The notes under the pieces: generated by a model
Databases searched by the model: none
The model's input: the letters and a program-made list of their open reading frames with translations, nothing else
What the model was told of the DNA's origin: nothing
In this document: positions 5,091-29,526 of the stretch, piece after piece
How positions within the stretch are numbered: the stretch's first letter is position 1
Layout of the letters: the number at the start of each line of letters is the position of its first letter
Translations under genes and position numbers: made by a program
DNA from: Hyperthermus sp.
Lineage (GTDB): Archaea; Thermoproteota; Thermoprotei_A; Sulfolobales; Pyrodictiaceae
Direction: 5' to 3'
NCBI GenBank assembly: GCA_003978665.1
Contig: QNYQ01000015.1
Coordinates: forward strand, 1-34,314
Length of the DNA: 34,314 bases

Positions 5091-6965
5091 TTAGGAGGCT
5101 TGTGGAATGGGAGCTAGGTATTGTTTAGCTTCTGGATAAACTAGTTCTAGGTCTTCGAGGCCTGGGGGCTTAACCGCGTTGGTCAACCAGTCCCCGGGTT
5201 TAACCCAGGGCAGCACAAGATCCTCGTTGTTGTCTATGTCTATTATCATCACTAGGGGCTCCCTGCTCCTAATGCTCCAGTCAACCCACTTCCTGACCTC
5301 ACCAAGGTCGGAGGGCCTTACAGCCTCGATGTCGTATGCCTCAGCTATCTTCGTGAAGTCTGGTCTTGGAGAGTATTCTGTAGCAACTATTCTCCGATCG
5401 TACAGGTAGATCTGCCAGTGTTTCACAAGCATTAGCGCGCGGTTGTCGAAGATCACTATTGTTATGGGGAGGTTGTAGTCACGTATGAGGGCGAGATTGT
5501 TCATCGTCATCTGGAAGCTCCCATCACCGTCAATGCATATCACTGGCCTATCGCGTGCAGCAACCTTAGCGCCTATTGCGGCGGGTATGCAGAAGCCCAT
5601 GGTACCCAGCCCGGCGCTGGTCAGCCATGTGCCTGGTATGTAGACGTCCCAGTGCTGCTCAGCCCACATCTGGTGGCTTCCCACACCAGTCACCGCTATG
5701 GTATTCTTTGGCGCCACCTCCCGGATTGCTTTCAGCACCTTCCATGGAGCAAACTTGCGCATTCTCCTAGCCCATCGCTCCATTGCAGCCTCGTACCTCC
5801 TCCTTATCTCGAGCAGCCATTCTACGAACTTGCTGTCTCTCCTCGTAACCGAGGGCAGTTCTCGTAGCAGGGCGTTTAGTGCTGCTTTAGCATCAGCAAC
5901 TATCCCTACTTCGGGGGTAACGTTCTTGCCTATCTCGCTGGGGTCACTATCTATGTGTATTATCTTCTTCTCGGCAAGCTCGGGAGAGAACCTGCCAACA
6001 GTACGGTCAGAGAACCTCGTCCCAACAGCTAAGACTACATCCGCGTTTGCCAGCGCAGCATCCGCCTCAAGCCTCCCATGCATGCCGGCAGGCCCCATGA
6101 CTAGAGGATGGTCAGAGGGCACCGCGTTCTTCCCGGGAAGCGTGGTGACTATAGGCGCCTGCAGGATCTCAGCTATCCTCAATACCTGCGTCCAGGCACC
6201 ACTCCAGTAAACCCCGTTACCGACGAGTATGACTGGCCTTAAAGCCGACACGAGCAGCCTCGCCGCCTTCCTTACGGCTTTAATATCGGGTTTTGGTGGC
6301 ACGTACTTGGAGAAGTCTATGGGCAGGTAGGCGTGCTCATCGCTTGGGACGTAATGCTTCAGCTGTATGTCACGTGGGAAGTCTACGAGTGTTGGGCCAG
6401 GCCTCCCCTCGTAGGCCAGCCTGTAGGCCGTGCGTAGTGCGGGACCGGTTTCCTCAGCCCTCTTTATCTGGTAGTTGAACTTTGTTATCGGCGCTGTAAC
6501 CCCGACTATGTCTGTTTCCTGGAAGGCATCGCGGCCGAACACGGCTGTAGGTACCTGGCCCGTGATGGCCAGCATGGGGGCCGAGTCGAAGTATGCGTTA
6601 GCTATGCCGGTTACAAGGTTGGTGGCGCCCGGCCCGCTTGTGGCGAGGGCTACTCCAGGCTTCCCCTTGATCCTACCGTACGCGTCTGCAGCGTGAGCTG
6701 CTCCCTGCTCGTGGCGGAACATGTATATCTCAAAGTCTTCAAGAGCTAGCGCGTCGAAGAAGCCCATTATACTGCCGCCAGTTATCCCGAATACTTCCCT
6801 CACTCCGAGCTCTTTGAGGACGCGTGCCGCGTGATCTACCACGCGAGTTCCATTTACGCCTGCACCTCCGCGACTTCCACTTTCGGCTGCACCTCCACCA
6901 TTTAACCAATGTTTAACAACAAAACCACCTCCAAGCCAGGAGCCAAGAAGCTGCCAGCAAGGCAT
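5091..6965 (-). CDS. ilvB: acetolactate synthase large subunit
   Basis: ELGVREVFGITGG, EQGAAHAADAYGR, ATSGPGATN, GDGSFQM ThDP motif. ORF track opens at 7007; the start is uncertain (ATG 6965 or GTG 6842), see findings. Confidence 0.95.
   Translation of the reverse strand: MPCWQLLGSWLGGGFVVKHWLNGGGAAESGSRGGAGVNGTRVVDHAARVLKELGVREVFGITGGSIMGFFDALALEDFEIYMFRHEQGAAHAADAYGRIKGKPGVALATSGPGATNLVTGIANAYFDSAPMLAITGQVPTAVFGRDAFQETDIVGVTAPITKFNYQIKRAEETGPALRTAYRLAYEGRPGPTLVDFPRDIQLKHYVPSDEHAYLPIDFSKYVPPKPDIKAVRKAARLLVSALRPVILVGNGVYWSGAWTQVLRIAEILQAPIVTTLPGKNAVPSDHPLVMGPAGMHGRLEADAALANADVVLAVGTRFSDRTVGRFSPELAEKKIIHIDSDPSEIGKNVTPEVGIVADAKAALNALLRELPSVTRRDSKFVEWLLEIRRRYEAAMERWARRMRKFAPWKVLKAIREVAPKNTIAVTGVGSHQMWAEQHWDVYIPGTWLTSAGLGTMGFCIPAAIGAKVAARDRPVICIDGDGSFQMTMNNLALIRDYNLPITIVIFDNRALMLVKHWQIYLYDRRIVATEYSPRPDFTKIAEAYDIEAVRPSDLGEVRKWVDWSIRSREPLVMIIDIDNNEDLVLPWVKPGDWLTNAVKPPGLEDLELVYPEAKQYLAPIPQAS
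6843..6896 (-). repeat. two tandem copies of a 27-nt element at the ilvB 5' end
   Basis: Minus strand 6896-6870 GGAGGTGCAGCCGAAAGTGGAAGTCGC, then 6869-6843 GGAGGTGCAGGCGTAAATGGAACTCGC. Confidence 0.85.
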
Positions 6966-6978
6966 GGGTCTCCTTAGG

Positions 6979-7028
6979 GGTTTAAAAGTATTGTCAATAA
7001 TCAACAATTATGATGCCTCTTTTAAACC
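6979..7028. promoter_or_regulatory. divergent ilvB/leuA promoters: TATA-like boxes in a perfect inverted repeat
   Basis: GGTTTAAAAG (6979-6988) and its exact reverse complement CTTTTAAACC (7019-7028) flanking an AT-rich centre. Confidence 0.65.
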
Positions 7029-7038
7029 GCTGCTACCC

Positions 7039-8271
7039 ATGCCCCCGTGTGGAGGCCTTCCCCGAGCCCTTCCCCCGCGACGTGGAGGTGCAGCTGAAAG
7101 TGGAACTCGCATAAGAGTGTTCGATACAACCCTGCGTGACGGAGACCAGATGCCCGGAATAGAGCTTGACGCGTCAGAGAAGATAAGCATCGCAATACTG
7201 CTGGACGAGGCACGTGTAGACATAATAGAGGCGGGCTTCCCGGCGTCCTCGCGCATCGATTATGAGTCTGTGAGGAGCATTAAAAGGGAGGTATCATACT
7301 CCAGGGTTGCCGCACTAGCTAGAGCCAATCCCGACGACGTTGACGCTGCTGCGGCAGCCGAGGCTGATATAATACACGTGTTTATAGCCACGAGCGACAC
7401 GCATATGAGGTATAAGCTTCGCATGTCTCCTGAAGAAGTCATTAGGTCTGCTGTTGATGCCGTGGAGAGGGCTAGAAGCTACGGTGCCTACGTCTTGTTC
7501 TCGGCCGAGGATGCTACGCGCAGCGACCCTGCTTTCCTAGTGAGGGTGTATAAGTCTGTGGTGGCTGCTGGCGCTAAGTACATTAATATTCCAGATACTG
7601 TTGGCACAGCCACTCCCTGGCGTATGGAGTGGCTTGTAGGGCTTGTAAGGTCGAGCTTACCGGGCTATGTGAGCATCGATGTGCACTGCCATAATGACTT
7701 CGGGCTAGCTGTTGCAAACACGCTTGCTGGTGTACGCGCCGGCGCGGATGGTGTGCAGGTTACAGTAAACGGGTTCGGTGAGAGAGGGGGCAACGCTGCC
7801 TTGGAGGAGGTTGTTGCAGCACTACACTTCCTAATGGGCTATAGGACTGGAGTGAGGATGGAGATGCTGACTAAGCTGTCGGGCATGGTGGCTGAAGTCT
7901 TCGGTGTGAAAATGCCCCCCAACAAGCCTGTCACCGGGCTCAACGCGTTCGCGCATGAGGCAGGAATACATGTTCACGGCGTGTTGAAGAACCCGGCAAC
8001 CTATGAGCCTATGCCCCCCGAGGCTGTGGGCAACAGGAGGAGGATAGTCTTGGGCAGGCATAGTGGAAGGGCTGCAGTCGCCTACGCCCTTAAAGCCATG
8101 GGCTATGAGCCCAGCAGCGAGGCGGTAGACTTTGTGCTAGAGAAGTTGAAGGAGGCTGCCCCACGCATAAAGAAGGTTAGCGAAGACATTATAGAGAAGT
8201 GGATGATGGAATACTACTCCCGCAAAATAGGTGCTGCAGGAGATGTCAAGACCGTTATCGCGGCCCGCTAG
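7039..8271 (+). CDS. leuA: 2-isopropylmalate synthase (catalytic domain only)
   Basis: [59 protein letters not shown]; next to leuB and ilv genes. ORF opens at 6964; start uncertain (ATG 7039 or GTG 7117). Confidence 0.87.
7084..7110 (+). repeat. third copy of the 27-nt element, at the leuA 5' end
   Basis: GGAGGTGCAGCTGAAAGTGGAACTCGC; differs from ilvB copy 1 at 2 of 27 positions. Confidence 0.85.
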
Positions 8272-26999: not shown

Positions 27000-27551
27000 A
27001 TGAGAACGCGGCTCCTAGCGTTAGCCGTGCTCCTAGCAGCTCTATCCGCACTATCAGCCGCTGAAGCCTATGGTCACGTCCACCGTGAGGGGGCACCGTG
27101 GATTAACGACACCTTGTGGCAGTGGCGCTGGAGGATCCCATGGGGTCCTTGGGGATGGCATGGACCTTGGTGGGGATGGGGTGTCTTCTGGCATTTAAGT
27201 GTTGACGGCAAGGTAAACGCTACCATACCACCCTCCCATCTCGTCCTCGATACCGTTTATGGTAAGGTACTAGTGATTGTCCCGTGGATTATGGTGGATA
27301 ATTCGACGGGTAAACCTGTTGCTGGCTCGGAGCTGCTTGAACTGGTAGGGAATGATGTCAGAGTGAGTGTTGAGGGTAAAGCAATGTTGGGGTACTGGAG
27401 GAGCTGGTGGTGGGGGCACGACGCTAGCAAGGGCTTTAGGCTAGTAGTTAAGGCTATGGTTTTGAGCGTTAACAATACTGTATACGTTGAGCCTAGCCTC
27501 TACTATAAGGGTGGCTGCTTGAGCTGTCACCGTGGCTCATGGGGCCCGTAG
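27000..27551 (+). CDS. secreted Trp-rich protein with a single CxxCH heme-c-type motif
   Basis: Signal peptide MRTRLLALAVLLAALSALSAAEA; WQWRWRIPWGPWGWHGPWWGWGVFW; C-terminal GGCLSCHRGSWGP. Confidence 0.75.
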   Translation: MRTRLLALAVLLAALSALSAAEAYGHVHREGAPWINDTLWQWRWRIPWGPWGWHGPWWGWGVFWHLSVDGKVNATIPPSHLVLDTVYGKVLVIVPWIMVDNSTGKPVAGSELLELVGNDVRVSVEGKAMLGYWRSWWWGHDASKGFRLVVKAMVLSVNNTVYVEPSLYYKGGCLSCHRGSWGP

Positions 27552-29235
27552 GAGGGGCTGACGGTAGCTGGGTGTCCTTTAGCATGGTGTTCTTTATTGC
27601 TTCCAGCGCCTGCTTGTACTCTATGGCGTCGATGAGTGCTTGGAGGCTGGCCTCCACTATGTTGTCTGAAACCCCTACTGTGGTCCATGTTTTTTGGCCG
27701 TCGGTCATGGTGACTTCCACCCTCACCACGCTCGCCGTGTCGCGGCTGGGGCCGGGCAGTTCTACGCGGTAGTCGATGAGCTTGAGCTTCTCGGCCATGT
27801 GGGGTTTAGTTTCTACTAGCGCTCTTCTAACAGCTTTATCTATCGCGTGGACGGGGCCTCCTCCCTCCCCAGCCGATATTGTTCCTGCCCCCTCTACCTC
27901 AAGCCTTACCAGCGCCCAGCTCCGTGGCTGTGCGCCTCTCCCGCCCTCCGACACTATTCTCCATGCCTGCACGCTGAGCTTTCTCTTGTAGAGCCCAAGC
28001 TCCTCGAGGAGTATCAGTAGCGCGCTTGCCTTGGCTGTGTCGAACCGGTAGCCCTTGTTCTCTAGGTCCTTGATCCTGCCAAGCGCCCTCTTCAGTGCTG
28101 GATGCCTCTTCCCAATGCTCAGCCCCAGCTCCGTCATCGTCCATGCAGCCAGGTTTGCCGTGCCACTCAGCTCTGAAACTGTTACCTTCCTCGTATTGCC
28201 CACCGCATCGGGCGCTATGTGCTCGTAGGCTCTAGGCGTCTTAAGCACTGCATCAACATGAACTCCTGCTTTATGTGTAAAAGCATTGTCTCCAACATAG
28301 GGCTGGTAGGGGTTGGGGCTTATGCCTGCGAGCTCGTAGACTAGGCGTGATAGGTGCGTGAGCCTCCTCAGACCCTTAGGATTGGCGAGTGCCCTAACCC
28401 CCATCTTGAGTTCTAGCGCTGGCACGACCTGGCATAGGTCAGCGTTACCCGTTCTCTCACCAATACCATTCACTGTTACCTGCACGTGACTAGCCCCTGC
28501 CAGCACGCCCATAAGCGTGTTTGCAACAGCATTACCGCTGTCATTGTGCATGTGAACACCCAGCCGGACGCCAGGCAGCTGCCTCAAAGTATCACGCACT
28601 ATGCTATACGCCATGTGGGGCAGCATGCCCCCGTTAGTGTCAGCCAACACTATTCTAGAAGCTCCAGCGCTGACTGCCGCCCTCAAAACCTCTACAGCAT
28701 ACTCGGGGTTGTCGATATAGCCGTCAAAGTAGTGTTCGGCATCAAATATCACATTCATCCCATGCTCTCTAAGATACTCGACCGTGTCCGCGATCATGCT
28801 CAAGTTCTCTTCGGGGCTTGTCCTCAATACCTGGGTGACGTGAAGCAGCCATGACTTCCCGAAAACAGTTGCCCAGTCAACTTCGGCTTCGATAATCTTA
28901 ACAAGACTGTTATCGCGGTCAACCCTAGTATTCTTCCTCCTTGTAGCAGTAAACGCCACGATCGCAGCATTCCTCAAACTATAATCCTTTATCTCCCTAA
29001 AGAAGAGCTCATCCTTAGGGTTACTTCCAGGCCATCCCCCCTCTATGAACGCCACGCCAAGCTCGTCAAGCTCTAAGGCTATCCTCACTTTCGCCTGAAG
29101 GGTAAACGAGACCCCGGCTGCTTGGGCACCATCCCTTAACGTTGTATCCAACACCTCAACACTGTCGAGAGGAGGCCTTAGAGGCGGGGAGAGCTGAGGC
29201 CCATGCTTGTCAAGACCCGCTAATTTGGTAACCAC
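27493..29235 (-). CDS. cimA: citramalate synthase
   Basis: EVLDTTLRDGAQAAGVSFTLQAKVRIALELDELGVAFIEGGWPGSNPKD, VHMHNDSGNAVANT, C-terminal LeuA-type regulatory domain. Confidence 0.92.
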   Translation of the reverse strand: MVTKLAGLDKHGPQLSPPLRPPLDSVEVLDTTLRDGAQAAGVSFTLQAKVRIALELDELGVAFIEGGWPGSNPKDELFFREIKDYSLRNAAIVAFTATRRKNTRVDRDNSLVKIIEAEVDWATVFGKSWLLHVTQVLRTSPEENLSMIADTVEYLREHGMNVIFDAEHYFDGYIDNPEYAVEVLRAAVSAGASRIVLADTNGGMLPHMAYSIVRDTLRQLPGVRLGVHMHNDSGNAVANTLMGVLAGASHVQVTVNGIGERTGNADLCQVVPALELKMGVRALANPKGLRRLTHLSRLVYELAGISPNPYQPYVGDNAFTHKAGVHVDAVLKTPRAYEHIAPDAVGNTRKVTVSELSGTANLAAWTMTELGLSIGKRHPALKRALGRIKDLENKGYRFDTAKASALLILLEELGLYKRKLSVQAWRIVSEGGRGAQPRSWALVRLEVEGAGTISAGEGGGPVHAIDKAVRRALVETKPHMAEKLKLIDYRVELPGPSRDTASVVRVEVTMTDGQKTWTTVGVSDNIVEASLQALIDAIEYKQALEAIKNTMLKDTQLPSAPPTGPMSHGDSSSSHPYSRG

Positions 29236-29526
29236 CCATCACCATCCCCTCCAGAGCCCAGGCGAGGGAGAAGATGCCTATGGCTGACCGGGCGCTGAGC
29301 CATGCTAATATTGTTTTCTCCTGGCAGTAAATGCTTGAAGCAACCGTGGAGGGTAGTGCGTAAGAAGCCCTTTCGCCGCTGGGATTTTTGTTGTTGCGTG
29401 GAGTTCTCCTTGGGGTGATGCTCTAGAAGCTCAAACTGATGGTTCCTTAGCGGTGCACTGTATTATTTAGGTTGCTTGTAGGCCTCCTTGCCTCTGGGAG
29501 ACCAGTCTGTTGGGGGCGGGCTCGTA

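Follow-up and report, generated by a model that had tools for sequence, protein, structure and literature searches.

The window considered here, by which we mean the whole analysed stretch of 34,314 nucleotides (nt) from the Hyperthermus sp. contig QNYQ01000015.1 (assembly size 970 kb), carries the divergent genes ilvB and leuA, whose facing 5' ends share a 27-nt element, as well as the gene cimA. An earlier note on this DNA had reported three copies of the element and, within them, short open reading frames (mini-ORFs) that are out of frame with the main genes. Both observations are confirmed: the 27-mers lie at 6843-6869(-), 6870-6896(-) and 7084-7110(+), with 0 expected in shuffled sequence, and the Val and Leu mini-ORFs of ilvB and the Leu mini-ORF of leuA read exactly as they had been written. 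The observation is also more important than that note proposed. We describe these mini-ORFs, their equivalents in relatives and before cimA, and the control of branched-chain amino acid (BCAA) biosynthesis that they may exert. The features of the ilvB/leuA locus, in which the two TATA-like boxes form a putative divergent promoter pair and SD stands for a Shine-Dalgarno sequence, are:

6980..6988, minus strand: TATA-like box of ilvB (CTTTTAAAC)
6926..6932, minus strand: SD GGAGGTG of the Ile mini-ORF of ilvB; GGAGGTGG is conserved in relatives
6902..6919, minus strand: Ile sensor mini-ORF of ilvB, TTG TTA AAC ATT GGT TAA; sensor ATT after A.AAC
6890..6896, minus strand: SD GGAGGTG of the Val mini-ORF of ilvB
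6854..6880, minus strand: Val sensor mini-ORF of ilvB, GTG GAA GTC GCG GAG GTG CAG GCG TAA; sensor GTC after G.GAA
6863..6869, minus strand: SD GGAGGTG of the Leu mini-ORF of ilvB
6836..6853, minus strand: Leu sensor mini-ORF ATG GAA CTC GCG TGG TAG, overlapping the ilvB start
5091..6842, minus strand: ilvB body, acetolactate synthase large subunit (TIGR00118, 582 bits), in the -1 frame relative to all three mini-ORFs
7019..7027, plus strand: TATA-like box of leuA (CTTTTAAAC)
7084..7090, plus strand: SD GGAGGTG of the leuA mini-ORF
7100..7114, plus strand: Leu-only sensor mini-ORF of leuA, GTG GAA CTC GCA TAA
7117..8271, plus strand: leuA body, isopropylmalate/citramalate/homocitrate synthase family (NF002085, 464 bits; TIGR02090, 440 bits; both below cut-offs), in the -1 frame relative to the mini-ORF

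The earlier inventory of ilvB mini-ORFs was correct for two units and missed the third, the Ile unit farther upstream. The accompanying claim that the mini-ORFs stop at or just before the GTG starts of the main genes holds for leuA (end at 7114, ahead of GTG 7117), whereas the Leu mini-ORF of ilvB terminates within ilvB, because its TAG (6838-6836) overlaps the GTG GTA G that begins at 6842. GTG 7117 is not a conserved leuA start, being GTC in three related genomes (G001, G012 and G015). An ATG at 6965 (6963-6967, minus strand) lies in the ilvB frame about 20-25 nt past the TATA box, and leaderless in-frame translation from it is possible in this species; relatives have no equivalent.

Sensor codons of the mini-ORFs in ilvB, leuA and cimA

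At up to 3 mismatches, no further copy of the 27-mer occurs in the 970-kb assembly outside the ilvB/leuA locus, and 6 of 57 related genomes have the motif, two copies in each and always at the same divergent locus. At other biosynthetic loci, too, no 27-mer was found in the assembly and related genomes searched. When the contigs of the GTDB collection were scanned for IlvB, only four loci came up, and three related contigs bear the names 'Pyrodictiaceae archaeon' (two) and 'Thermoproteota archaeon' (one). What relatives conserve is a mini-ORF that follows an SD and contains a single branched-chain codon, here termed the sensor codon; in the relatives compared the first base of its start codon is A, G or T, and never C. 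In what follows G, L and f numbers are our handles for genomes, loci and families, respectively. The window's own family is f1; f2, f3, f5-f8 and f11 are of the same order, and f19 and f27 of the same phylum outside that order; g1/g2 denotes seven f1 genomes, the window among them. Peptides are given without the stop codon that ends each mini-ORF.

The three mini-ORFs of ilvB in the window, (TTG)LNIG, MEVAEVQA and MELAW, correspond to MSNIA, MEVA and MELAW in G003, to MSNVPA, MSNIW and MELV in G005, and to MSNVPM, MSNIM and MELAW in G012 and G015, while G001 and G004 lack a Val unit and have the other two. The Ile unit varies in relatives among MSNIA, MPNIA, MSNIC, MSNIM and MSNIW, Val is covered by MSNVP(A/M) in G005, G012 and G015, and the Leu unit of six relatives is MELAW, MELA or MELV. 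All f1 ilvB mini-ORFs share one frame, to which ilvB is always -1, and their start-to-start distances (27, 33, 36, 39 and 42 nt) are each divisible by 3. Elsewhere in the order the ilvB leader has a single mini-ORF with several sensors, past the promoter and about 60-130 nt upstream of ilvB: MELQV(R/S/M/Q/H) in f3 (10 of 10), MELEVRQIH and its relatives in f2, ..MIGDCTLQV and its relatives in f11 (29 genomes), MEL(R/S) in f7, MRSQI in f6 and MAEDLQLEV.. in f8. The f5 mini-ORFs MELWVMPLEIR and MPSELGVTDMEIQ reach up to or into ilvB, and the f19 ORF begins ATG TCG GGG GTA TCG GGG CTT CGA CAG GGA ATT... The f11 leaders (e.g. L085) also have T-rich stretches past the mini-ORF stop, which may be archaeal terminators if the leader is untranslated. 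Single stop codons were seen within the stretches matched by the genome search at L030 (ilvB of G007) and at L170, L171 and L175 (leuA of f19).

Before leuA, an early Leu codon is present in all 63 mini-ORFs tallied. The mini-ORF encodes MELA in all seven g1/g2 genomes, and other families reach Leu by different letters: TTG CTC CAA CTC.. in f3, TTG CTA.. in f2, TTG TTG.. in f7, f8 and part of f1, TTG CTC A.. in f27, MGLPNLGV in f6, MASGLVQ and relatives in f19, and MSILQA, MSVLH, MRILHG and relatives in f11.

The same sensor logic, in different letters from the ilvB and leuA elements, recurs at cimA, whose product makes the isoleucine-specific precursor. In the window its features are:

29246..29252, minus strand: SD-like GGAGGGG of the cimA mini-ORF
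29210..29239, minus strand: Ile sensor mini-ORF of cimA, ATG GGT GGT TAC CAA ATT AGC GGG TCT TGA
27493..29235, minus strand: cimA body, citramalate synthase (TIGR00977, 628 bits), in the +1 frame relative to the mini-ORF

An equivalent Ile mini-ORF precedes all 25 cimA genes tallied (the cimA of G007, where no such mini-ORF was seen, was excluded), with the Ile codon at the same place in 25 of 25; examples are MGGYQISGS in the window, MGGRQIH, MSGVQEIC, MVGGVEIHES and MPGIM. Besides Ile, a few of these mini-ORFs in f3, f8, f11 and f27 have a codon for Val or for Leu. The specificity is kept in about ten archaeal families: leuA goes with Leu, cimA with Ile, and ilvB in most families with two or all three of the branched-chain amino acids. 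Further genes identified in the window are ilvC, ilvD and a leuB-type dehydrogenase; the leader of its prephenate dehydratase gene, read by eye, has no obvious equivalent mini-ORF.

Missing starts, open frames and slip-prone codons

The search for main-frame starts covered ATG, GTG and TTG between the upstream in-frame stop and the conserved DTTLR motif in 67 leuA genes from several orders, with 18 paralogues that share the N-terminal motif as controls. No canonical start was found in 28 of the 67, as against 1 of the 18. In G001, G012, G013 and G015 the leuA frame has none from the upstream stop to the catalytic motif VFDTTLRDG; in most f3 genes the sole start-like codon sits within the SD; in G003 an in-frame TAA lies inside the element, next to the mini-ORF start; and in several f11 genes the mini-ORF ATG shares bases with a TGA. 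Where leuA has no main-frame start, translation would have to reach the enzyme either by switching frame after the mini-ORF start or by initiating at a non-canonical codon, which is not the same in all families. The body frame likewise lacks a canonical start in 6 of 25 cimA genes and in the ilvB of 6 of 11 f19 genomes. In most cimA genes of f3, f8 and f27 a body-frame stop stands at nt +13 to +16, with the Ile codon a few nt downstream, so that the body frame could be entered only at the sensor. A second frame devoid of a usable start is hence a property of many leuA, cimA and f19 ilvB genes; the window itself has GTGs.

Stop codons were counted in 49 leaders whose mini-ORF is separate from ilvB, from the end of the mini-ORF to 48 nt short of the conserved body. 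There are 164 stops in frame 0 and 48 in frame +1 (none of them in f11), while frame -1 contains 0 in about 1,125 codons. Under dinucleotide shuffling the probability of an open -1 frame is 0.03-0.4 in most genomes and up to 1.0 in the GC-rich f7 and f8; the largest value for each genus, multiplied over 17 genera, gives 10^-11.8, a value to be taken as indicative rather than exact, since the genera are related. In 49 of 49 leaders the -1 frame terminates between -20 and +26 nt from the ilvB start. In several genomes this frame lacks any canonical start and is closed by a stop codon 10-13 nt ahead of the sensor, so that here, too, entry would be possible only at the sensor.

The codons that precede the sensors are prone to slippage. 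They were scored by the number of positions (2 or 3 of 3) at which the tRNA in the ribosomal P site re-pairs one base back or forward. In the -1 families the sensors follow G.GAA, C.CAA or A.AAC, and the -1 score is at least 2 at 22 of 26 f1 ilvB sites, 20 of 20 f3 ilvB sites and 10 of 10 f1 leuA sites, against only 24-31% of BCAA codons in gene bodies that reach a -1 score of 2. The direction of slippage usually agrees with the frame in use. At the Leu sensor of f3 and f2 ilvB the site favours -1, and only -1 is open; in f27 ilvB the site favours +1, and +1 is open (0 stops in 111 codons). The Leu codons of f11 follow NCC or NTT: in its leuA, NTT|CTY favours +1 and the body lies at +1, and in its ilvB both shifted frames are open (0 in 648 codons each), NCC|CTC favouring +1 and C.CAA before Val or Ile allowing both. 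The cimA body is at +1 in 20 genes, all with a +1 score of at least 2, and at -1 in f19, where G.GGG|ATY is perfect for that direction. Conserved slip-prone sites with matching direction are strongest in f19 (G.GGG), whereas re-pairing in f1 is at 2 of 3 positions only. In f19 the leuA site is a perfect G.GGG|CTC in 12 of 12, and in ilvB, whose body lies at -1, a run of four Gs that permits perfect -1 slippage precedes almost all first codons for Val, Leu and Ile; the slip rule had been noted before f19 ilvB was first read.

A proposed frameshifting mechanism and the alternatives to it

The missing main-frame starts, the multiple-of-3 spacing and the stop-free frame together speak for a shift of frame at the sensor. 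We consider it highly probable, judging from the sequences, that the elements would act as amino-acid sensors through starvation-triggered ribosomal frameshifting. The ribosome would bind at the SD, or at the leaderless start, of a mini-ORF of 4-20 codons and soon meet the sensor codon, which specifies Leu before leuA and Ile before cimA; ilvB has sensors for all of Val, Ile and Leu. With the cognate aminoacyl-tRNA plentiful, the sensor would be decoded and the ribosome would terminate at the mini-ORF stop, making no enzyme. With it scarce, the A site would stay empty ('hungry'), and the P-site tRNA could re-pair one base back or forward and enter another frame. For leuA and cimA in nearly all families, and for ilvB in f1, f5 and f19, this would be the enzyme frame, and the product would be a short trans-frame fusion. 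At the separate ilvB leaders of f2, f3, f6, f7, f8 and f11, the shifted ribosome would translate the whole leader and stop at the ilvB start, where it could reinitiate or protect the transcript. Given several sensors in series, shortage of any sensed amino acid would turn ilvB on. It is likely, in the more specific form of this proposal, that three BCAA genes of thermophilic Thermoproteota are turned on by starvation-triggered frameshifting at single sensor codons, with ilvB as an OR gate and, in f11, Leu acting through +1 and Val and Ile possibly through -1.

Several points count against this proposal. 1) The case for frameshifting is drawn from sequence comparison, and the mini-ORFs were picked by motif with the hypothesis in mind, the open-frame and start-codon counts being made later. 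2) P-site re-pairing is just 2/3 in f1, f3 and f11, and at XAA|GTN and XAA|ATN the slip direction is not predicted, as the -1 and +1 scores tie. 3) In GC-rich f1 an open main frame is weak evidence, the third frame having 2 stops in about 170 codons. 4) Body-frame starts exist in the window (GTG 7117, GTG 6842, GTG 29235 and ATG 6965, the last at the likely transcription start), so part of expression could be direct. 5) The f5 leuA genes (L145 of G033 and L146 of G043) do not fit the model, as no Leu codon or Leu mini-ORF was seen there: they share a conserved GTG GTG GGC TAG GCT TC, whose TAG falls in the leuA frame, and downstream of it there is no canonical start. 6) In leuA of f2, f3, f7, f8, f27 and part of f1 (e.g. 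L130 and L136) the TTG start is overlapped by a body-frame ATT (ATTG) at which translation could begin; the overlap would mean either initiation at AUU or a place onto which the initiator tRNA slips.

The alternative that fares best, though we regard it as unlikely, is upstream ORF (uORF) coupling without a frameshift, in which the mini-ORF ribosome reinitiates at the adjoining main start or its stalling gates access to that start. Stop/start pairs do overlap at some genes (ATGA in G005 ilvB, GTGGTAG in most of f1, GTGA in G043 ilvB and G010 leuA); in many others a main start overlapping or adjoining the uORF stop is absent, and a start for reinitiation is missing altogether in the 28 leuA, the 6 cimA and the six f19 ilvB genes counted above. 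Coupling would leave the uORF frame free, which is not what f1 ilvB displays with its fixed multiple-of-3 spacing and an enzyme always at -1, and it does not explain a -1 frame free of stops over 50-100 nt or the slip-prone codons. The earlier note had proposed a shared translational leader, with uORF coupling or BCAA-responsive control as possible forms of it. A BCAA-responsive leader fits all the findings and the idea was right in spirit; plain coupling fails on the main-frame starts missing in many relatives, and the mechanism is most likely frameshifting instead.

Non-canonical initiation in the main frame (at AUU, AUA, GUC and the like), with the overlapping mini-ORF as a decoy, seems to us quite improbable. 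It gains from the body-frame ATT over TTG in the leuA genes listed under point 6; however, no codon is common to all, AAT or AGT standing at this place in f1 g1/g2 and ATT being absent from it in f6, f11 (with one exception) and f19, and neither the ilvB leaders, nor the in-frame stops before the cimA sensor, nor the amino-acid specificity would be accounted for. Classical leader-peptide attenuation, in which stalling at the sensor alters RNA structure or termination and the open frames have some other cause, we hold to be very improbable. Short ORFs with codons for the end product of the pathway are indeed present, and f11 has its T-rich stretch past the mini-ORF; yet there is no room for an attenuator where the mini-ORF abuts the enzyme (ilvB of f1, f5 and f19; leuA and cimA), and stop-free frames and missing starts are left unexplained. 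At the window locus no hairpin or terminator separates leader from gene, the mini-ORFs abutting or overlapping the genes, and Rfam gives no match at E<=1.

The last two readings have next to no probability. A main-frame N-terminal extension GGAAESG(S/T)R shared by both proteins, the earlier note's own alternative, would suit the ilvB frame, which runs uninterrupted across the leader in each of the seven g1/g2 genomes, and the ATG 6965 of the window, but it was rejected on the TAA within the element of G003 leuA and the missing starts, G012 and G015 having none for it, and its residues vary whereas the mini-ORF start (ATG/GTG/TTG) and sensor codon stay. A DNA operator for a regulator common to both genes, suggested by the same sequence near both divergent promoters, is rejected because conservation tracks codons and frames, other families keeping the codons in unrelated DNA (MELQV, MASGLVQ, TTG CTC ..).

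Relation to known control systems

In leader attenuation of ilv, leu, trp and his operons, of which the Corynebacterium ilvBNC uORF is an example (PMC10272879), a short upstream ORF with end-product codons gauges the supply of aminoacyl-tRNA, as proposed here. The archaeal leaders would differ in that their output is a change of frame, usually straight into the enzyme, rather than alternative RNA hairpins, and in that about one sensor codon serves each amino acid. If the proposal is true, they are an archaeal counterpart of leader-peptide attenuation, free of hairpins and able to join directly to the enzyme. With the +1 frameshifts of bacterial RF2 and of antizyme they would share a protein made only through a shift out of a short first frame, under control of the product's own pathway; the trigger, however, would be an end-product sense codon instead of a stop codon or polyamine, and three genes with three specificities are concerned, some at -1 and others at +1.

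Among thermophilic archaea, fucA1 of Saccharolobus solfataricus likewise uses a -1 frameshift, but it is a single gene and not a system of amino-acid sensor codons, and it was the only archaeal -1 programmed frameshift reported as of a 2021 review (PMC8211752). No archaeal leader of the present kind was described in the literature searched, coverage of which left most subscription journals and bioRxiv outside. The molecular event would be that of the hungry-codon frameshifting of Gallant (reviewed in PMC5009743), in which ribosomes short of an aminoacyl-tRNA slip at the codon left vacant; there it was studied as an effect of starvation and not as a control circuit. For trans-frame proteins specific to starvation, Atkins and colleagues wrote in their 2016 review that 'no examples are known' (PMC5009743). 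The genes described here would, if the proposal is correct, supply a natural control circuit with hungry-codon frameshifting as its signal, and would account for the start codons of leuA, cimA and ilvB that are hard to find in these genomes; the proposal is testable in culturable relatives. The closest precedent for a shifted ribosome that activates a downstream gene is the ermC leader (PMC5009743, section 28), in which ribosomes shifted by ketolides cross the leader and switch on the gene beyond it; that system is bacterial and induced by a drug, whereas the inducer in these archaea would be a shortage of amino acids.

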